64,000 nt of DNA. Source: Novosphingopyxis baekryungensis DSM 16222 (lineage in GTDB: Bacteria; Pseudomonadota; Alphaproteobacteria; Sphingomonadales; Sphingomonadaceae). The first letter of the stretch is position 1; the number at the start of each line of letters is the position of its first letter. The stretch lies in contig NZ_ATUR01000002.1 of assembly GCF_000420305.1 (NCBI RefSeq), positions 1 to 64,000 of the forward strand, written 5' to 3'. Shown here in pieces: positions 13,472-24,135 of the stretch. Under the pieces are notes generated by a model. The model saw only the letters and a program-made list of their open reading frames with translations. It did not search any database and was not told the origin of the DNA. The position numbers and the translations under genes are program-made.

Positions 13472-14878
13472 TCACTCGATCGGGCGGTCGTGATCCAGCA
13501 TGTCTTCTTCCTGGCTGTGCTGGCGTTCCTGCTGCACCTTTTCGCCGATCTCGTCGTCCGCCGATACATCTTCGTGGACGTCTGGGTCGGCGGGGTCTGG
13601 CAAGGTCTTCTTGTCCATGGCAGCGCTGCCATCACCGGCTGAACCGGGCTTGGTGTTGCGGGCAATCTCCAGCGGGCTGCCGCTGTCGAAACGCAGGCGA
13701 TAGATTGGCTCGGGCAGACCGAACCCCTGTTCTTCCAGCGTGATCTTCACCGCGCGGATGGCGGCGCTGCGTGCCTTGAACCAGTCCGTCTGGGTCTGAT
13801 CGATCCAGCCCAGGAACCGCAGCATGATGTTGCTGTCGCCCACTTCCTCAAGCCGTCCATTGGGGGCGGGATCGGCAAGCACGAAGGGCAGGGACTTCAG
13901 CCGGTCGATACCGGACGTGATCGCCTTGCCGGGGTCATCATCGGCATCCACGCCCAGAACGAAGTCGAAACGGCGTTCCGGATTGCGGGTGAAGTTCAGG
14001 ATTTCGGCCATGAACACGGTGTTGTTCGGGATACGTAGATGGTTGCCGTCCAGCGTCATCAATATGGTGGCGCGGCTGGTGAGACGAATGACGCGGCCTT
14101 CGCGATCCCCGATCACCACATGGTCATTGGCGCGGAATGGCTGGCGGATGGAGAGCATCAGCGAACTGACATAATTGTCGACCGTGTCCTTCACCGCGAA
14201 ACCGATGGCGAGCCCGACCACACCGGCGGAACCGAGGATCGCGCCCAGCAGCGTGGTTGCCCCCAACAGATCGAGCGCGATGATCAGGCCGATGAGGATG
14301 ACCACCAGCCGAACGGTGGTGGCGATCAGATCGGCCAGAAAGCTGTTGGGGGAAATGCGTTTCCACAACGGTTTGGCACGGGCCAGCGCGCTTCCAGCAA
14401 ACCAGAACAGGGCAATGATGACGAGCGCGATCGCCAGCAGCGGCAACAGCTGGACGATTTGCTGCACACGCGCCGTCAGCCGCTCCATCACCGGTGCCAC
14501 GCTTTGCGACACATCTCCGTTGCGCGTGATGTTGTTCTGCACCGCCACCACGCCAGTGACGCGCAGGGCAATCTGGCGGGCGCGGTCGATATCCGAAGCC
14601 TCGCTCACTGCGCCAGACAAGGTCACCACGCCGGATTCCACCGACACCCTGGTCGGCTCCAGCCCGTCCAGTTCGCTATAGATGGCGCGCAGCCTGCTGG
14701 TGATGGCCTGGTCCTGATCGGCAGATTCGCTGATCGAGATCGCGCTGCTGCTGTCGGGACTTTCAGGCTCGGATGCGGGGGCCGACGATCCGCCGCCAAG
14801 GCCGGGCAGGGCCTGCGCGCCCAGCGGCGCGGCGGCCAGACACCAAAGCAGCGCGATGGCGGTCAAGATGGTTTTCAT
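13472..14878 (-). CDS. Mechanosensitive channel (MscS) with N-terminal BON-like domain
   Basis: The protein has 468 residues from ATG 14878; upstream Mets lack a signal. A signal peptide (residues 1-21) leads to a periplasmic BON-like module (about 47-112: ITSRLRAIYSELDGLEPTRVSVESGVVTLSGAV). Three membrane helices follow, and then the MscS pore/beta domain: LGSAGVVGLAIGFAVKDTVDNYVSSLMLSIRQPF, then HVVIGDREGRVIRL and IPNNTVF. The C-terminal 60 residues are acidic and Gln/Glu-rich. MscS channels release solutes on hypo-osmotic shock, and the BON module may tether it to the envelope. Confidence 0.9.
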   Translation of the reverse strand: MKTILTAIALLWCLAAAPLGAQALPGLGGGSSAPASEPESPDSSSAISISESADQDQAITSRLRAIYSELDGLEPTRVSVESGVVTLSGAVSEASDIDRARQIALRVTGVVAVQNNITRNGDVSQSVAPVMERLTARVQQIVQLLPLLAIALVIIALFWFAGSALARAKPLWKRISPNSFLADLIATTVRLVVILIGLIIALDLLGATTLLGAILGSAGVVGLAIGFAVKDTVDNYVSSLMLSIRQPFRANDHVVIGDREGRVIRLTSRATILMTLDGNHLRIPNNTVFMAEILNFTRNPERRFDFVLGVDADDDPGKAITSGIDRLKSLPFVLADPAPNGRLEEVGDSNIMLRFLGWIDQTQTDWFKARSAAIRAVKITLEEQGFGLPEPIYRLRFDSGSPLEIARNTKPGSAGDGSAAMDKKTLPDPADPDVHEDVSADDEIGEKVQQERQHSQEEDMLDHDRPIE

Positions 14879-15060
14879 GCGTCTGCTTCCCGTGGCCGAA
14901 ACTGGCGCGCAGCCGCGATCGGCGCTGCGGGCTATCCGGCGCACGGTATCGCGCACGGATGCCGCGGGCAAATGATTGATTTAGGACGGATTGGCCGTTG
15001 CGGCAGCGGCGCAGAGGCTCGCCAGATGATGCGCCAAGGCTCCGCCCTGGCTGCCGGTGC

Positions 15061-15405
15061 TCAATCCGCTTCGGGCGCGGTCTCGGTCTCGGTTGCGGGC
15101 GCGGCACCGGGCGATGTCGCCGCGCGCAGCCGCGCTGCCATGCCTTCCAGCGTCACCAGCGCGATCCGCTCCTCGGTAGAGGCGTCAGAACGAAGCATCT
15201 CGGCTACCGCGATCTGCATCTGCGTGATGTTGTCGATCGACTGCAGGCTGGCCATGTGTCGGCGCAGCGTCTCCGGGTGGCTGCCAAGATCATAGGCCAG
15301 ATCGGCCAGGATCTGGGTCATGCGCAGCAGCTCGTCGGCCAGCGCGAGGTTCAGCGGATCGACCTGCTGGCTATCCTGCTCCTGTAAATGCGACATCATG
15401 TTCAT
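15061..15405 (-). CDS. Small hypothetical protein at the end of the chemotaxis operon
   Basis: The protein has 114 residues, mostly helical (LNLALADELLRMTQILADLAYDL, LQSIDNITQMQIAVAEML), with an Ala/Pro/Thr/Glu-rich tail. The start overlaps the stop of the cheB-like gene by 4 bases, so it is the last member of the che operon. I recognise no named family. Its size and helix content would suit a binding partner or a phosphatase-like accessory, but nothing in the sequence shows this. Confidence 0.7.
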   Translation of the reverse strand: MNMMSHLQEQDSQQVDPLNLALADELLRMTQILADLAYDLGSHPETLRRHMASLQSIDNITQMQIAVAEMLRSDASTEERIALVTLEGMAARLRAATSPGAAPATETETAPEAD

Positions 15406-16409
15406 TTGGACAGCAATCCGATCAGTGTTTTTCCAAGGTCTTCGGCCTTCACCGGCTGCGAGGCATAGCCGCGCTCCATGGTAAAACCGCCGTCGCTGCT
15501 TGGCAGCAGGCAGTGGCCGCGCACCCCGGCAATGGCGTTGGCCGCGCCTTTGCCGTCTTCATTATCGGACAGCAGGAGCAGACCGACCACATCCACCGTG
15601 GCGGCCTTGGCCGAGGATGCAAACAGCAGCGAGATCGAGGGGCGTTCGCCCGCCACGGGATCGCGCGGCAACAGCTTCAGTTTGCCGTCCGGCCACGCCG
15701 TCACCACGAGATGCGCCTCGCCCTGCGGGGCGAAATAGATCGTGCCCTTTTCGATCGCCATGTCGTCTTCGGCCACGACCACGCGCGGCGCGACCTGTGC
15801 GTCCATCTTTTCCGCCATGCCCTTGACCACGCCGGGTTCCAGATGCTGCACCACGATCATCGGCGGACAATCGGCCGGCAGCTGCCCGAACAGGCTGAAC
15901 ATGGACGATGTGCAGGAAGCGTCCGCGCCGATCACGGTCAGACGGCCGTTCCAGTCGATCGCGGCGCCGCCGCCCGAAGGGCCAGCCTCGCCGCCCGGTA
16001 CGGGCATGCGGGCATTCTTTGCGGTCGCGATCGTCTTGCCCAGCTTGCCGATGATCGCATCCAGCTCCGCCGGGGCTGCCACCTTGGGTTTGGGAAGACA
16101 ATCGACGGCACCAAGCCGCAGAGCCTCCACGGAATCGGCTGCGCCGTCGGTGGTCCGGGTGGAGAACATGATCACCGGCATGGGATCATTTTCCATGATC
16201 TCGGCCAGATATTCGATCCCGCTCATGCCGGGCATTTCGATATCGAGCGTCATCACATGAGGACGGTGTGTTTTCACCATCTCGCGCGCCTCGGCTGCGC
16301 CATTGGCCAGCCCCACTACCTCCACATCCTTGACGCGCTCCAGCGCACCGCAAAGCAGCGCGCGCATCGTCATGGAATCGTCAACAACAAGAACCTTGGT
16401 CTTTGACAT
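15402..16409 (-). CDS. CheB-like response regulator with degenerate methylesterase domain
   Basis: The protein has 335 residues. The receiver domain (1-120) is intact: VLVVDDS, phospho-acceptor D56 in TLDIEMPG, and K107 in LPKPKV. A linker leads to a CheB-type esterase domain whose catalytic His is kept (VVQH, H189) and whose Asp seems kept (D285). The nucleophile motif GASTGG is replaced by GADASC (161-166), so the serine position is Asp163. It is probably not an active receptor methylesterase. It lies 3 bases after cheW. A canonical cheB is at 17818-18837 in the same operon. Confidence 0.9.
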   Translation of the reverse strand: MSKTKVLVVDDSMTMRALLCGALERVKDVEVVGLANGAAEAREMVKTHRPHVMTLDIEMPGMSGIEYLAEIMENDPMPVIMFSTRTTDGAADSVEALRLGAVDCLPKPKVAAPAELDAIIGKLGKTIATAKNARMPVPGGEAGPSGGGAAIDWNGRLTVIGADASCTSSMFSLFGQLPADCPPMIVVQHLEPGVVKGMAEKMDAQVAPRVVVAEDDMAIEKGTIYFAPQGEAHLVVTAWPDGKLKLLPRDPVAGERPSISLLFASSAKAATVDVVGLLLLSDNEDGKGAANAIAGVRGHCLLPSSDGGFTMERGYASQPVKAEDLGKTLIGLLSK

Positions 16410-16412
16410 GTC

Positions 16413-16862
16413 TTACTCCTGCGCGAGTGCCGCAACCGATGGCACGCCATCCACCAGCCGCTCTAGTGAGAGAACGAGGATGAGCCGTTCGTCGATCGTG
16501 GCCAGGCCATCCAGGAAATTGGAGGCCACGGAATCGCCCATGTCCGGCAGGGGCTGCATGGCATCGGGACTGACCGTCACGATGTCGTTCACGGCATCGA
16601 CGATGATGCCCTGCATCTGTTCGCCGATCTGGACCACGATGATCACGTGCCGCGCCGTGGGATCGGTCTCACCCCAGCCGAGGCGATGGCGCAGATCCAG
16701 GATCGGCAGCACGGATCCGCGCAAATTGACCACACCGCGCACATAGTCCGGTACGTTCGGCAGCGGCGTGGCCGGTGCCCAGGCCCGGATTTCGCGGATT
16801 GCCATGATGTCGATTCCCAGCACCTGATCGCTCAGCTGGAATGTGATAAGTTGACGGCCCAT
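16413..16862 (-). CDS. cheW: Chemotaxis coupling protein CheW
   Basis: The protein has 149 residues and is a single CheW domain: LITFQLSDQVLGIDIMAIREI, then VRGVVNLRGSVLPILDLRHRLG, and IIVDAVNDIVTV. CheW scaffolds the receptor-CheA array. It follows cheY by 17 bases in the che operon and precedes the degenerate cheB-like gene. The length is typical. Confidence 0.95.
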   Translation of the reverse strand: MGRQLITFQLSDQVLGIDIMAIREIRAWAPATPLPNVPDYVRGVVNLRGSVLPILDLRHRLGWGETDPTARHVIIVVQIGEQMQGIIVDAVNDIVTVSPDAMQPLPDMGDSVASNFLDGLATIDERLILVLSLERLVDGVPSVAALAQE

Positions 16863-16879: not shown

Positions 16880-17242
16880 TCAATGCAGAACGCGGCGAAT
16901 GGCCGTGGCCAGCTTTTCCGGATCGAACGGCTTGGTGATCCAGCCGGTCGCTCCGGCGGCGCGCGCGCGCTGCTTCTTCTCGTCCGAACTTTCCGTGGTG
17001 AGCACCAGAATGGGCAGCGTCCGCTCCCCTTCGCCGCGCACACGTTCGATCAGGCCAAACCCGTCGAGGCGAGGCATGTTGATATCCGTGATCATCAGAT
17101 CGGGCTTACCATGGGACAGGACTTCCAATGCATCGATGCCGTCCTCGGCTTCGGACACCTCATAGCCGAGGTCGCACAGCGCTGCCCGAAGCAGCATCCG
17201 CATGCTCGGCGAGTCATCGACGGTAAGAATGGATTTGGACAT
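16880..17242 (-). CDS. cheY: Chemotaxis response regulator CheY
   Basis: The protein has 120 residues, a lone receiver domain. It has the acidic pair D9-D10, phospho-acceptor D53 (MITDINMP), T82 and K104 (ITKPF). Phosphorylated by CheA, it would bind the flagellar switch. No DNA-binding output domain is present. It sits between cheD and cheW. No flagellar genes are in the window. Confidence 0.94.
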   Translation of the reverse strand: MSKSILTVDDSPSMRMLLRAALCDLGYEVSEAEDGIDALEVLSHGKPDLMITDINMPRLDGFGLIERVRGEGERTLPILVLTTESSDEKKQRARAAGATGWITKPFDPEKLATAIRRVLH

Positions 17243-17263: not shown

Positions 17264-17821
17264 TCAAAATAGTTCGACGTCGCCGGTGGATACGGGCGGC
17301 ATGATGGGGGTGGATTTCTTAACTGGCGGCGCCATGGCGGCGGTGTTCTGCACCGACCGGCAGCGCGCCAGACCAAGCGCTGCACGAAACTGGACGCGGC
17401 GTGCGCAATTATCGCCGACATCTTCGCCGACCAGAGGAATGCCCTCCGCCCGCAGGAATTGCCGCGCAAAGGCTATATTCTCGCCGCCGATATCGCGGAA
17501 GCTGCTGCGCATCGTGGCACCGCCATAGATCCGCGCCTTCATCCGTTTGCGCATCGCCCCTTGCGCCATCATGTTGTTGATCAGCAACTCCATCGCATAC
17601 ACGCCGTAGCGTTGCAGCGACGCGCTATCGGTCGCGGTGCCGCTGGCGAGGAGATAGTGGTTGATGCCGCCCACCTTGGCGACCGGATCGAACAGGCAAG
17701 CGGCCACGCAGCTGCCCAGCACGGTAACCAGCACGACTTCGGGATCGCTCGAAACGCGCGTCTCCCCCTGGGCCACGGTGACATTGCGAAAACCAGCGCT
17801 GGGTTTGGCCATCATGTTCAT
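17264..17821 (-). CDS. cheD: Receptor deamidase CheD
   Basis: The protein has 185 residues from ATG 17821, which overlaps the cheB stop (ATGA). The thiol active site is VTVLGSCVAACLFD (Cys38) with His55 in GGINHYLLA, the catalytic pair of CheD. The C-terminal NCARRVQFRAALGLARCRSV is the usual family end, extended by about 20 residues rich in Pro and Lys. CheD deamidates glutamines on chemoreceptors and in some species interacts with CheC/CheY. No cheC is present in the window. Confidence 0.93.
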   Translation of the reverse strand: MNMMAKPSAGFRNVTVAQGETRVSSDPEVVLVTVLGSCVAACLFDPVAKVGGINHYLLASGTATDSASLQRYGVYAMELLINNMMAQGAMRKRMKARIYGGATMRSSFRDIGGENIAFARQFLRAEGIPLVGEDVGDNCARRVQFRAALGLARCRSVQNTAAMAPPVKKSTPIMPPVSTGDVELF

Positions 17822-18837
17822 GCTGCACACGCCTTCATGATTTCTCCTCCCATTCGGGACAACGGAATTTCCTTTTCGACGCCGCCCAGCTTGTAGGCTT
17901 GCGCCGACATGCCATAGACGACGCAACTGGCCTTATCCTGGCCGAGCGTCTTGGCACCTGCGTCACGCATGGCTTTCAGGCCAAGTGCACCATCGCTGCC
18001 CATGCCGGTCATGATGGCACCCACGGCGGCGCTTCCGGCCACACGCGCCACCGAATGGAACAATTGATCGACCGAGGGGCAGTGGCCGCTGACGCGATTT
18101 CCAGAGGCTACCCGGCAATATAATTTGCCAGGTACGCCGCCGAGCTCGAGGTGGGTCGGGCCTCCCGGTGCCAGATAGACCGTGCCCTGTTGCAGCGGCG
18201 CGCCGGGACGTGCCTCGACCACCTTGGGCTTGGAATGCCTATCGAGCCGGGCGGCAAAGCTGGATGTGAACGCGTCGAGCATATGCTGCACGACGAGGGT
18301 GGGCGGGCAATTTTCCGGAAAGGTGCTGAGCAGGTGCAAAAGCGCCTCGACCCCGCCGGTGGATGCGCCGATGGCGATAATCGCATCGGCGCGGGGTTTG
18401 ACGGCCAGCACATGTGCCGCCGCCTTGGGCAGGGCAGCATGGGCCGAGCGCTTGCCATGCTTGGCCGCCGCTTTCACGGTGGTTGCCAGCGTGGCGCTTT
18501 CCGGGCTGGAAAGAATGGATTTGTTCACGCATTCGAACGCGCCCAGCGCCAGCGCATTCACGCTGGCTGTGGCTCCGGCGGCCGTCAGCGTGGACAGCAT
18601 GACGACCGGCATCGGGCGCAAACGCATCAGGCGTTCCAGAAAGTCGAGCCCGTCGATCCCCGGCATTTCCACATCAAGGGTAACCACATCGGGATTGAGC
18701 GATTTGATCAGCTCCCGCGCGGCATAGGCATCCGCAGCGGTGCCCACCACTTCGATATCCGGATCCTTTTTCAGCAGGTTGGACACCGCAGCGCGCATCG
18801 CCAGCGAATCGTCCACGATCAGGACGCGCACGGTCAT
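17818..18837 (-). CDS. cheB: Protein-glutamate methylesterase CheB (canonical)
   Basis: The protein has 339 residues from ATG 18837 (ATGA overlap with the cheR stop). The receiver domain has D55 in TLDVEMPG. The esterase domain keeps the full triad: Ser159 in IGASTGG, His185 in VVQH and Asp282 in TGMGSDG. It demethylates receptors and so resets adaptation. It serves as the built-in comparison for the altered paralogue at 15402-16409. Confidence 0.95.
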   Translation of the reverse strand: MTVRVLIVDDSLAMRAAVSNLLKKDPDIEVVGTAADAYAARELIKSLNPDVVTLDVEMPGIDGLDFLERLMRLRPMPVVMLSTLTAAGATASVNALALGAFECVNKSILSSPESATLATTVKAAAKHGKRSAHAALPKAAAHVLAVKPRADAIIAIGASTGGVEALLHLLSTFPENCPPTLVVQHMLDAFTSSFAARLDRHSKPKVVEARPGAPLQQGTVYLAPGGPTHLELGGVPGKLYCRVASGNRVSGHCPSVDQLFHSVARVAGSAAVGAIMTGMGSDGALGLKAMRDAGAKTLGQDKASCVVYGMSAQAYKLGGVEKEIPLSRMGGEIMKACAA

Positions 18838-19700
18838 GCCGCGATCTTCCGAAAGGCGGTGCGGCCGATCATTTCGAAGCGCTTGGCCACCGGGCCTTCC
18901 AGCCGTTCGGAATGGCCGATATACATCATACCGCCCGTCACCAGCTGGTCGGCTAGGCGGGATTGCAGACGCTCTTTGCTGGGGCCATCGAAATAGATCA
19001 TCACATTGCGGCAGCAGATGGCATCGAACTGCCCACGCATCGGCCAGTCGTTGAGCAAATTGAGCGGCAGGAACGAAATGGCGGCGCGCAAGGCTGGGTC
19101 GACGACCAGGCTCTGTTCGTCCTTCCGGGTCCATGTACGGCGCAGCTCGTGCGGCACGGTCTCCATGGTTTGCGCCGGATAGATGCCGGTGCGTGCCGTG
19201 GCCAGCACGGTTGGCGAGAGATCTGTGGCCAGCATTTTGAAGTTTTGCTTCAACAAGCGTGCTGCTTCATCACGCTTGCTGCCGAGCGCGGACATCAACC
19301 AGGTATAGGGCTCTTCACCGCTCGAGCATGCGGCGGACCACAGGCGCACCTTGCCGCCCTTGGTCAGGCGCTGGGCCAGACCCGGCCAGACTTCTGCCGT
19401 GAAATGATCGAAATGATGGCTTTCGCGAAAGAAACTGGTGTGATTGGTGGTGAGCGCATCGATCGCGCGTTCGCGTTCCGCTGCGTCCTGATCGATCAGC
19501 TTGAGATATTCCGCCACCGATTTCAGGCCGCGCTCGCGCACGCGCGGGGCCAGACGGCCATAGACCATCTGCGTCTTGCTGTCCGGCAGCAGAATGCCGG
19601 CGGTCGAATAAGCGATTTTCGCGATGATACGGTGATCGTCCATCGTGAAATCGAACTCGCGCCTGCCGGGCGGCATCTGCATGGCGGTGGCAGCGCTCAC
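18834..19700 (-). CDS. cheR: Chemoreceptor methyltransferase CheR
   Basis: The protein has 288 residues. The N-terminal helical domain contains RLAPRVRERGLKSVAEYL, and the SAM-binding domain has TSFFRE, LWSAACSSGEEPYTW, MLATDLSPTVLATARTGIY and CRNVMIYFD, all CheR hallmarks. It methylates receptor glutamates. The transducer encoded upstream ends in a CheR-tether-like pentapeptide. It overlaps both cheA (19697) and cheB (18837) by 4 bases. Confidence 0.95.
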   Translation of the reverse strand: MSAATAMQMPPGRREFDFTMDDHRIIAKIAYSTAGILLPDSKTQMVYGRLAPRVRERGLKSVAEYLKLIDQDAAERERAIDALTTNHTSFFRESHHFDHFTAEVWPGLAQRLTKGGKVRLWSAACSSGEEPYTWLMSALGSKRDEAARLLKQNFKMLATDLSPTVLATARTGIYPAQTMETVPHELRRTWTRKDEQSLVVDPALRAAISFLPLNLLNDWPMRGQFDAICCRNVMIYFDGPSKERLQSRLADQLVTGGMMYIGHSERLEGPVAKRFEMIGRTAFRKIAA

Positions 19701-21880
19701 GCGGCCATCTCCAGCGTCTGCGCGGGCGCTGCGCCGGCAAAACGGCGCGCGGTCAACATGTCGACGTCAAGGATCAGGGCTACCTGCCCGTCGCCCAGGA
19801 TGGTGGCACCCGCAAGCCCGTTGATGGCGCGGTAATTCGCCTCCAGGCTCTTGACCACCACCTGTCTCTGGTCCTCGATGGAATCGACCATCAACGCGGC
19901 CAGTCCATGGTCTCCATCGACCACGATCAGCACCGCCTCACGCGGGTTGGTTTCCGCATTATCGATATTCAGCTGACTGGCGATCCGGTGCAAGGGGACA
20001 TAGGAGCCGCGCACGTCCAGCATGGCCGCGCCATCGCCCAGTTCGCTCACATTATGCTCGTTCGGTCGCAGGCTTTCCACGATATGGCTGAGCGGAATGA
20101 CATAGGTCTGTTTGCCCACGGTCACGATCATGCCGTCCAGAACGGCCAGCGTCAGCGGCAGGCTGAGCGAAAAGCTCGATCCGACTCCCTCGCGGGACTG
20201 AATGCCGATACGGCCGCCCAAGGCCTGAATATTGCGTCGCACCACGTCCATGCCGACCCCGCGACCGGACACGCTCGACACCTGCTCCGCCGTGGAGAAG
20301 CCAGGTGCAAAAATCAGATTGTCGATCTCTTCATCGCTCATTGCCGCATCGGGCTGAATGATGCCGCGCTCGACGGCCCGTTCCCGGACGCGCTTGCGGT
20401 TGATGCCGCCGCCATCGTCCGACACCGTGATGACGATGCGGCCGGAATGGTGCGCGGCGGACAGTTTGACGACGCCCTCTTCAGGCTTGCCGGCGGCCAC
20501 CCGTCGTTCCGTGCTTTCCAACCCGTGATCGACGGCGTTGCGGATAAGATGGGTCAGCGGTTCGCCGATGCGCTCGACGACCGTTTTGTCGACTTCGGTC
20601 ATCTCGCCCTCGACCTCCAGGCGCACACGCTTGCCGGTTTCGCCTTCAAGCTCGCGGATGATGCGCGGCACGCGGCTGAACACGGTGTTCATCGGCTGGG
20701 CGCGGATCGCCATAGTGGATTCCTGCAGATCGCGCGTCAGCAGATCGAGGTCGCCAAGCTCCGGAATGCCGGCCAGATCATGGTCGGAAAGCTGCTGCGC
20801 CAGCATGGCCTGGGTAATGACCAACTCGCCGACCAGATTGACCAGCTTGTCCAGCTTGTCGAGATCGACCCGAATGGTCTGGTTGGCGGCCACCAACTTA
20901 GTGGGCTTGGCCGGCGCGCTTTTGGCCGGCTCGCTTTTCGGCGGTGTCGGCGCAGTTGGGGCGCTGTCGATCTCGGCTTCCGGTGCGGAAGCGGGCTGGC
21001 TGGCGCTTGGCTGCGGCTTGTCGTCTGACTCTTGCGCTGCCGGGTGCGATTCCGCGGTCGGCAGGTCTTCTTCCTGCGCTGACGGCGCATCTGCGCCACG
21101 CGTCAGTTCCAGCGTATAGCCATCGGTGAATTCGAAGACCGAGCGAATATCGTCTTCCTCAACGGATTCCGGTACGCTGATCGTCCACGTCAGATAGCTG
21201 CATTCCGCATCGAGAGAGGCCAGTGGCGGCAGATCGTCGAGATCGACTTGCTGCGTCGTTGCGCCGAGACGCGCCAGTTCGCGCAGCAGAAGAAGCGGTT
21301 CCGATCCATTGTCGAAGGCATTGCGGGCCGGGCGCACGCGCAGATTCCAGTCGGCCGGTGCCGTTTCGGCCACAGGCTCGGGCGCTTCGGCAGGACCGCC
21401 CAGCATGGCCATCAGGTCGTCAAACCCGTCATCCCCTGCTGGCGCTGCTTGTGCTTCGGGCACAGCGATGTCGGCCGGTTCGGCGGCGTCTGCGGCATTC
21501 TGGTCCACAACCGCAGCCTGCTTCAGCCGTTCGAGCATGTCGACATCGGCCGGGGCCTCTTCCGTGTCCCGCGCCGCTGCCACATGGTCGGCAAGCATGT
21601 CGAACGCTGCCAAAATGGTGTCCAGCAATGGCTGGTCCAGAGTCAGCGTCTCGTTGCGCACCAGATCGAGCAGCGTTTCATATTCATGCGTATAGGCTTG
21701 CAGGCGTTCGTGGCCGAATGCGCCCGCGCCGCCCTTGATCGAATGAACGCAGCGGAAGATGGTGTTGATAGTCTCCGGGTCGTGGCTTTCGTCACGGATG
21801 GTGGCGAACGCCTGCTCCATGCCGGCCAGGCCTTCTTCGCATTCCTGAAAGAAAAGGATTTGAATTTCATCTGTATTCAC
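19697..21880 (-). CDS. cheA: Chemotaxis histidine kinase CheA
   Basis: The protein has 727 residues. The Hpt domain has phospho-accepting His46 in CVHSIKGGAGAFG. A response-regulator-binding region and a long Pro/Ala/Lys-rich linker (about 270-325) follow. The dimerisation/H-box region is LVNLVGELVITQAML, and the ATPase is LTHLIRNAVDHGLE, DDGGGINRKRVRERA, FAPGFSTAEQVSSVSGRGVGMDVVR. The CheW-like regulatory domain contains VIPLSHIVESL. It phosphorylates CheY and the CheB proteins. It follows the STAS gene by 15 bases. Confidence 0.95.
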   Translation of the reverse strand: MNTDEIQILFFQECEEGLAGMEQAFATIRDESHDPETINTIFRCVHSIKGGAGAFGHERLQAYTHEYETLLDLVRNETLTLDQPLLDTILAAFDMLADHVAAARDTEEAPADVDMLERLKQAAVVDQNAADAAEPADIAVPEAQAAPAGDDGFDDLMAMLGGPAEAPEPVAETAPADWNLRVRPARNAFDNGSEPLLLLRELARLGATTQQVDLDDLPPLASLDAECSYLTWTISVPESVEEDDIRSVFEFTDGYTLELTRGADAPSAQEEDLPTAESHPAAQESDDKPQPSASQPASAPEAEIDSAPTAPTPPKSEPAKSAPAKPTKLVAANQTIRVDLDKLDKLVNLVGELVITQAMLAQQLSDHDLAGIPELGDLDLLTRDLQESTMAIRAQPMNTVFSRVPRIIRELEGETGKRVRLEVEGEMTEVDKTVVERIGEPLTHLIRNAVDHGLESTERRVAAGKPEEGVVKLSAAHHSGRIVITVSDDGGGINRKRVRERAVERGIIQPDAAMSDEEIDNLIFAPGFSTAEQVSSVSGRGVGMDVVRRNIQALGGRIGIQSREGVGSSFSLSLPLTLAVLDGMIVTVGKQTYVIPLSHIVESLRPNEHNVSELGDGAAMLDVRGSYVPLHRIASQLNIDNAETNPREAVLIVVDGDHGLAALMVDSIEDQRQVVVKSLEANYRAINGLAGATILGDGQVALILDVDMLTARRFAGAAPAQTLEMAA

Positions 21881-22204: not shown

Positions 22205-23626
22205 TCAGAATTCCGACCAGTCATCGTCGGCCAGCGCCGCATTGCCGACGCTGCGCGCAGCGGGCGCGGGCCGGGAAAGCTGACGGGCGGCATTGGCGGC
22301 GCGGGCCTGCAGCTGATGGACAGGGGGCGACTGCGCCGCACGTGATCCCCGTCCGCCGATGGTAAAGCGCGACACCTGCTGTGCCAGTGCATTGGCTTCT
22401 TCGGAAAGGCTGCGGGCGGCGGCGGTGGCCTGCTCAACCATGGCGGCGTTCTGCTGGGTCACGCCATCCATTTCGGAGACGGCGGTGTTGACCTGCTGCA
22501 GACCATTGGCTTGCTGTTCGGCAGAGTCCGCAATGGTGGCGAACATGGTGCTGAGTTCACCGACACCAGCGATGATGCGCTGCAACGACTTGCCCGTCTC
22601 ACTGACCAGCTCGACGCCAGCATCGACCTGCTGGGACGAGGCCATGATCTTCGATTTGACGTCCTTCGCAGCGTCGGCAGAACGCTGTGCCAGTGCGCGC
22701 ACTTCGGAGGCGACCACGGCAAATCCCTTGCCGGCGTCGCCAGCGCGTGCCGCTTCCACACCGGCGTTGAGCGCCAGCAAATTGGTCTGGAACGCGATCC
22801 CGTCGATGACCGAGATGATCTCGCTGATCTCGCTGGATGCCCGCTCGATCCCGTTCATCGCACTGACGGCGCGCTCGACGATCTTGCCCGATTCCTCGGC
22901 TTCGCTGCGGGTCTGGCCGACCAGCTTGTTGGCATTGCTGGCGCCTTCGGCAGCCTGGCGCACCGTAGAGGTGATCTCATCCATGGCGGCTGCGGTTTCT
23001 TCCAGGCTGGCTGCCTGCTGCTCCGTGCGCTGCGATAGATCATCGGATGCCTGGCGGATGTCGCCTGCGCCGTTATTGATGCCGGAGGCCGCATCCACCA
23101 CGGCGGACATGACTTCAGACACGGATTCCAGCGCTTCGTTATAGTTGAGGCGCAGTTGCTCGTAATCGCTCGGGAACGCCTGATCGATGCGGAAGGTCAG
23201 ATCGCTGGAGGCCAGTTTCTGCAGACCTTCGCCAAGCGCGCTGACAATCTGTTGCTGCGCTGCGGCGGCGGTGTTCACCTTCTCGCCATTGGCCCGGAAC
23301 ACGTCCATGGCGGTGGTCATCCGGCCCACGCAATCTTGATTTTCGGTGTGCATGATCGGGCTGGTCAGGTCACCAGCTGCAAGCCCTTCCATCCGTACGA
23401 CCGTATCCACATAAGGGTCGCAGATCAGTTTCTTGGACACCAGAACAACGATGCTATGCGCCACCAGGCCGGCAACGGCGACGGCAAGCATGGTGCTGGC
23501 TGTCAGGCCGTCCGTCATGGCCATCAGGGCGGCAATGACAATGACGGCCGAGATGCCGGCATGAATAAATAGAAGCGCGTTGAACTTTGTTCGGATAGGT
23601 GCGTTTTTCTGAAACCAGTTGATCAT
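22205..23626 (-). CDS. Methyl-accepting chemotaxis protein, minimal periplasmic part
   Basis: The protein has 473 residues from ATG 23626. Two membrane helices (about 17-37 and 44-63) are separated by only about six residues, so there is no periplasmic ligand domain. A HAMP-like region follows (64-180), then the signalling domain with the conserved hairpin tip [44 protein letters not shown] flexible Ala/Gln/Arg linker ends in DWSEF (469-473), resembling the CheR/CheB-tethering pentapeptide NWETF. It is the first gene of the che operon. Confidence 0.93.
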
Positions 23627-24135
23627 TGCCTTAGCCTTTCGATCCAAATTTCGAAGAACCGTCCGGATGGAAGAGGGACAAGTTTTTCGGACAGAATGGC
23701 GCTTAGTGAAGAGTGGTTAAGCATCGGTTTATGCTACGGCTTCCTTCGCAAGGGATCGCCGATCGTGGGGCTGGGAAAAAGCCAAAAGGTCAAAGAGTTG
23801 CCCGCGATGATGCAGTGCACAATGCCGAGCATACCCTTTTGGGGTGATGCCCGGGAAGATGTCTTGGGCGCTCCTTGCGAATGAGTAATCCGAAGCCGCG
23901 GATCGCGGACCTAAGTTAGTCGAAACGGTTGAAATCAGCCGGTTGGCGGAAACGGCAGGTCATCTGATCGAGGCAGAGATCCAGCGCTCGGCGATCCGGA
24001 TTTTCCCCGATGCCGTCGTATAGATGTCGGCATGTAGCTGCTGATGGCAGGAACATGGCAATAGCCGAAAGACCCGTGATGGCCTGCGGGCACGCAATCG
24101 TTTTGTGGACCATAGGATCAGGCCGAATCGGCTGA
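23627..24135. other. Non-coding gap upstream of the che operon
   Basis: These 509 bases lie between the mcp start and the lacI stop, both minus strand, so they should hold the che promoter. Two short open frames (23696-23884 plus; 23916-24176 minus) show no family resemblance and are not called. A short direct repeat, ATCAGGCCGA, flanks the lacI stop (near 24116-24145) and forms a weak hairpin. No tRNA or strong terminator is visible. Confidence 0.5.

Follow-up and report, generated by a model that had tools for sequence, protein, structure and literature searches.

A clade of triad-broken CheB proteins with a conserved receiver in the chemotaxis loci of Sphingomonadales

The che operon of Novosphingopyxis baekryungensis DSM 16222 encodes two CheB proteins, the second of which, CheB2, has kept the receiver and fold of a CheB while its methylesterase triad is broken. 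As far as sequence can tell, CheB2 is a CheB duplicate, seen here only in Sphingomonadales, that has lost methylesterase residues by different routes in different lineages. It could well be an old, selected pseudoenzyme that accepts phosphoryl groups, and its most likely role is that of a sink or switch for them on the CheY branch. Positions given below without a genome or locus label refer to the window, the 64,000-nucleotide stretch of contig NZ_ATUR01000002.1 that was analysed.

CheB2 has the CheB architecture and a degenerate active site

The cheB2 gene (15402..16409, reverse strand) encodes 335 residues, comprising a receiver followed by a degenerate CheB esterase domain. Pfam matched Response_reg at residues 6–109 with 78.8 bits and CheB_methylest at residues 159–300 with 76.2 bits (cut-off 24), as against 190.5 bits for the esterase domain of its partner, CheB1. 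The AlphaFold2 model is a confident two-domain structure with a mean pLDDT of 90.7. By Foldseek it matches chain 6ymz_B with a TM-score of 0.86, and the query TM-scores to the six full-length chains listed first lie between 0.81 and 0.86. In alignments with the solved CheB proteins 1a2o and 6ymz, the CheB2 sequence GADASC lies opposite GASTGG and QHL lies opposite QHM, and the aspartate of the xDG motif is retained. Asp163 thereby occupies the place of the catalytic serine, with His189 and Asp285 completing the site; the phospho-acceptor is Asp56. CheB1 has the complete triad, Ser159-His185-Asp282. Further changes surround the site: LLSDNEDGK stands in place of the TGMG part ahead of the catalytic aspartate, and CheB2 lacks a short segment that in CheB1 surrounds the GMP motif. 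The original prediction, made from the window alone, had described a CheB whose receiver is intact and whose catalytic serine is lost, a few genes away from an active CheB, with GASTGG changed to GADASC, Asp163 at the nucleophile position, and His189 and Asp285 kept. The Pfam matches, the alignments and the residue positions bear out this description in full.

A functional methylesterase is recognised by an intact Ser-His-Asp triad, in place of which CheB2 has Asp163-His189-Asp285. Its receiver residues, CheB_methylest domain and fold are those expected of a CheB. Against the NCBIfam CheB models CheB2 scored 214 bits (cut-off 293) and 179 bits (cut-off 342), both below cut-off; CheB1 passed the first with 374.9 bits and missed the second with 322.1. 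Because both the triad and the NCBIfam cut-offs fail, CheB2 should not be called a methylesterase, although it is a CheB by descent and fold, and we infer that it lacks methylesterase activity. Elsewhere in the genome, another che-like cluster contains a third, triad-intact CheB gene (G000:C2:701185-701724). This second cluster (L042:7294-12594, forward strand, within G000:C2:690000-709000) holds CheA, CheW, CheY, the triad-intact CheB and CheR.

CheB2 lies between CheW and a small helical protein

The operon is transcribed on the reverse strand and is headed by a chemoreceptor (MCP; 22205..23647), identified by reading its translation and with homologues at the same place in relatives. CheA follows (19697..21880), with Hpt, H-kinase_dim, HATPase_c and CheW domains, and then CheR (18834..19700; PF01739, 183.8 bits), CheB1 (17818..18837; PF01339, 190.5 bits), CheD (17264..17827; PF03975, 88.5 bits), a single-domain CheY (16880..17242; PF00072, 105 bits), CheW (16413..16862; PF01584, 133.2 bits), CheB2 and lastly a small open reading frame, ORF114 (15061..15405). 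Only 3 nt separate the CheW stop from the CheB2 start, and the ATG of ORF114 overlaps the CheB2 stop (AAATGA). The next gene downstream, at 13472-14971 on the same strand, reads like a small-conductance mechanosensitive channel.

ORF114 encodes a mostly helical protein without a Pfam or NCBIfam family at E 0.001. Its structure model (mean pLDDT 81.9) has helices at residues 14-38 and 48-69. A Q-x2-D-x3-Q motif is invariant, with the Gln, Asp and Gln identical in 99 of 99 distinct domains. Matches to ORF114 occur in 90 of 397 family genomes and at two Hyphomicrobium loci. The helix bearing the motif is reminiscent of CheZ, with its Asp143/Gln147 motif, and ORF114 is a candidate CheZ-like CheY phosphatase. 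This remains a lead, since a profile search with 41 ORF114 members returned no CheZ among the best 25 of 27 Pfam families (E up to 10) and a fold search gave no informative match (best E 3.3).

We compared gene order at 82 distinct loci over 5 kb, using the window's proteins as BLAST queries (E 1e-12) to label genes; at this threshold distant genes may be missed. CheB2 lies between CheW and ORF114 at 41 loci and is divergent from other che or MCP genes at 30. At three loci of a Zymomonas type it follows a CheA-like gene and precedes ORF114, four loci show other arrangements, and at the remaining four it is accompanied only by CheY and ORF114. The Zymomonas-type CheA-like protein (L159:5715-7388, forward strand; 558 aa) matched HATPase_c and CheW, whereas neither Hpt nor a dimerisation domain was found at E 0.001.

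At the four loci with CheY, CheB2 and ORF114 only (L096, L161, L164 and L165), BLAST with the window's proteins found no further operon-gene homologue within 15–19 kb. The CheY encoded there is of the operon type, with 60-66% identity to the window's CheY versus 34.5-39% to that of the other cluster. We searched for CheB, CheR and CheW domains in the three genomes to which L161, L164 and L165 belong (G232, G322 and G463) and in three others (G283, G353 and G427). Each of these six genomes, which share a genus code, has two CheW-domain matches, both in a separate cluster with CheB and CheR; flagellin matches were found in all six. The genomes searched retain another CheA/CheW/CheB/CheR cluster. 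The four loci tie CheB2 more closely to CheY than to CheB1, CheR or CheD, although another CheA, CheB and CheR persist in those genomes.

Across the family, CheB2 was counted by score rank (about 370 bits and more, with G165 excluded for its intact triad) in 50 of 397 genomes, and its sequence was read in all of these except G353, G427, G283 and G228. The other 347 genomes gave no CheB2 match at this score. A Pfam profile for CheZ, which divergent members can escape, had no match in 20 of 20 genomes. A non-flagellar role, considered for the four of 25 genomes that gave no FliM match, was dropped, as Flagellin_N matched in 20 of 20 genomes searched, those four included.

Triad-broken CheB proteins form one clade

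CheB-like proteins were taken from genomes of the order and the family and from named genomes, mostly relatives of Sphingomonas, Novosphingobium, Sphingobium and Erythrobacter, with one Zymomonas and a few Hyphomicrobiales and Paracoccus. The resulting 209 rows (208 distinct stretches plus the window's CheB1, re-entered as a reference) are skewed towards relatives of CheB2, because most loci were retrieved using it. The Ser-His-Asp triad is intact in 110 rows and broken in 99. Among the broken rows, 55 keep the serine and have lost the histidine, with Gln, Arg, Pro, Asn or Gly instead, 23 keep the histidine and have Asp or Glu in place of the serine, and 21 have lost both. The catalytic aspartate is retained in 98 of 99, the exception being a seemingly shortened copy. 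In that copy, from Sphingomonas beigongshangi (L151:8048-8824, forward strand), the reading frame seems truncated within the esterase domain.

Asp or Glu at the nucleophile place occurs in 26 of the 99 broken rows, of which 23 retain His and three have Gln or Asn. A same-genus genome, G187, has GADASG, and each of the 17 best named homologues has Asp or Glu at this place, which makes a private mutation or sequencing error a poor explanation of the window's CheB2. An alignment of sphingomonad homologues at positions 160-166 had been proposed at the outset. Close relatives have Asp or Glu at the nucleophile, but more distant members have the serine and lack the histidine, so replacement of serine by aspartate is one route of loss among several.

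For phylogenies, we removed the columns around the three triad sites and thinned near-identical rows. In a quick tree, 52 broken representatives formed one clade against 59 intact rows, with an SH-aLRT of 100. A careful tree, built after dropping the long row L002 and then alternate intact rows (L168 among them), again placed the 52 in one clade, against 29 intact rows, with support of 100/100 and in 200 of 200 bootstrap trees. The original prediction had allowed that homologues might be intact and this copy a unique mutation; with none of the 99 rows intact and the 52 representatives grouping together, that alternative fails. The 14 Asp/Glu representatives, the window's CheB2 among them, form one subclade (100/100). 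Its placement is unfirm, the remaining broken rows forming one group in 5% of bootstrap trees, so the tree does not decide between a single loss of the histidine with later regain and repeated losses. An intact CheB, L168, came out as sister to the broken clade in the quick tree (SH-aLRT 81). This protein (G165:C351) is encoded next to CheR and CheD; its operon also contains ORF114, and no CheB2 was seen there. Outside the order but within the class, where 51 of 385 genomes matched, the 18 best loci are all triad-intact.

The receiver is guarded and the esterase domain drifts under constraint

The receiver residues Asp, Asp, phospho-Asp, Ser and Lys are retained in 99 of 99 broken rows. Of the 110 intact rows, 11 have Glu for the first Asp and one lacks it. 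Mean pairwise receiver identity over 68 loci is 0.652 for CheB2 and 0.625 for CheB1, and mean esterase identity is 0.408 and 0.586, respectively. The 26 Asp/Glu loci give 0.782 for CheB2 versus 0.678 for CheB1 in the receiver, and 0.558 versus 0.682 in the esterase domain. For the esterase domain, all 36 close pairs gave dN/dS values from 0.02 to 0.38; these were computed for CheB2 pairs only, and many of the dS values are near or above 1. In every pair dN/dS is higher in the esterase domain than in the receiver. The two pairs from the loci with CheY, CheB2 and ORF114 only are on the high side, at 0.105 and 0.243 for the receiver and 0.286 and 0.354 for the esterase domain, which hints that selection is weaker at these loci. 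Together with the conservation of individual positions described below, these identities and dN/dS values indicate that the esterase domain is conserved as a folded part, with a variable catalytic neighbourhood.

Possible roles of CheB2

At the level of sequence, triad loss throughout the group, conservation of the receiver, purifying selection, linkage to the operon and persistence with CheY and ORF114 alone at four loci are established. Because a broken sister of CheB with a kept receiver is common to many relatives, CheB2 probably serves in signalling and need no longer be an enzyme. As a sink or switch, CheB2 would accept phosphoryl groups from CheA and would rival CheY and CheB1 for them, thus shortening the signal as a sink or buffer, and its folded esterase-like domain, no longer catalytic, would offer a binding surface gated by the receiver. 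The failure of CheZ profiles to match in the 20 genomes leaves room for such a sink. A pure sink, however, would have no use for the esterase-like domain, and yet this domain is under purifying selection; if ORF114 is perhaps a CheY phosphatase, a sink becomes less necessary. The rejection of a sink-only role for two R. sphaeroides CheY proteins, cited below, also speaks against it. We speculate, with reserve, that CheY, CheB2 and ORF114 could constitute a portable signal-termination module in Sphingomonadales, in which CheB2, as a phospho-accepting pseudoenzyme, would set the lifetime of CheY-P or gate its release, ORF114 would be an unrecognised CheZ-like phosphatase, and the trio could persist without adjacent CheA, CheW, CheR, CheB1 or CheD; we think this rather improbable as a whole.

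It is conceivable, though doubtful, that CheB2 is instead a phospho-switch whose esterase-like domain has acquired a new partner, be it ORF114, the motor or another protein. Some positions (CheB1 numbering) vary less in CheB2 than in CheB1, with Gly151 in 99 of 99 rows, Pro248 in 98 and Arg253 in 95; Pro248 and Arg253 are also the commonest residues at these positions in CheB1. ORF114 is present in all 50 genomes in which CheB2 was counted, and in the window its start overlaps the CheB2 stop, as would fit such a partnership. However, 24 of the 30 divergent loci have ORF114 at a place separate from CheB2, and among the 397 genomes another 40 have ORF114 and no counted CheB2, which argues that it is no dedicated partner of CheB2.

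The proposals made at the outset for an inactive CheB were competition for receptors, a phosphate sink, and regulation of CheR or CheD. The sink fits best, and the other two are weakened by the four loci at which CheY, CheB2 and ORF114 occur and the operon's CheB1, CheR and CheD were not found nearby. Receptor competition is possible but less favoured. In this reading, phospho-CheB2 would bind the receptor methylation region without hydrolysis and shield methyl groups from CheB1. The CheB fold and two-domain arrangement of the model, the intact CheB in the same locus at 67 of 82 loci and the purifying selection on the esterase domain are what a decoy of this kind would lead one to expect. Against it, besides those four loci, stand 33 esterase positions whose conservation, 95% or more among the partner CheB1 proteins, drops below 70% in CheB2; they include residues of the GxSTGG, QH, GMG and GMP stretches, around all three triad positions. 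On balance we consider the decoy unlikely.

That the Asp/Glu-His-Asp set of the Sphingomonas-type subclade supports another hydrolytic chemistry is very improbable: the coherence of this subclade and the histidine in 23 of its 26 rows speak for it, but the histidine is Gln or Asn in the other three, Asp and Glu interchange, and the GMG and GMP motifs near the site are lost. Scarcely credible is decay into a pseudogene, for which one could cite the faster drift of the esterase domain than in CheB1, its higher dN/dS than the receiver's in all 36 pairs and the apparently shortened S. beigongshangi copy, but which is at odds with receiver chemistry retained in 99 of 99 rows and dN/dS well under 1 in every pair.

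Implications and comparison with known systems

Should this view of CheB2 hold, receiver and fold would be reason enough for a CheB to be retained. With several routes of catalytic loss and a guarded phospho-switch, this old sister clade would then separate the two functions naturally and help to show what the phosphorylation of CheB achieves beyond activating the esterase. For annotation, PF01339 matches in sphingomonads should have their triad checked before they are counted as methylesterases. A search of titles and abstract openings, with most subscription papers outside its reach, found no paper on an inactive CheB clade of this kind.

The closest known relatives are the CheB methylesterases of Salmonella (1a2o) and Pectobacterium atrosepticum (6ymz), the latter with the triad S165-H191-D287 according to PMC7698151. 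CheB2 resembles them in its receiver and esterase architecture, fold, receiver residues and catalytic aspartate, and differs in that the triad is broken in all 99 CheB2-type rows. According to a survey (PMC10542144), chemosensory phosphatases are missing from 93% of genomes with a single receiver-bearing CheA. Sink-type functions have been put forward for other receivers. CheV, a CheW domain joined to a receiver, is proposed or described as a phosphate sink in PMC12691637 and, like CheB2, fuses a receiver to a non-catalytic chemotaxis domain; the fused domain of CheB2 is of CheB type and of separate origin. In Sinorhizobium meliloti the second CheY, described as a phosphate sink in PMC2783038, is likewise an extra CheA-fed receiver with no action on the motor, and the same source reports that modelling rejected a sink-only role for CheY3 and CheY4 of R. 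sphaeroides. Unlike the S. meliloti protein, CheB2 is two-domain and CheB-derived, and in comparison with both this CheY and CheV its part as a sink is one that we infer.
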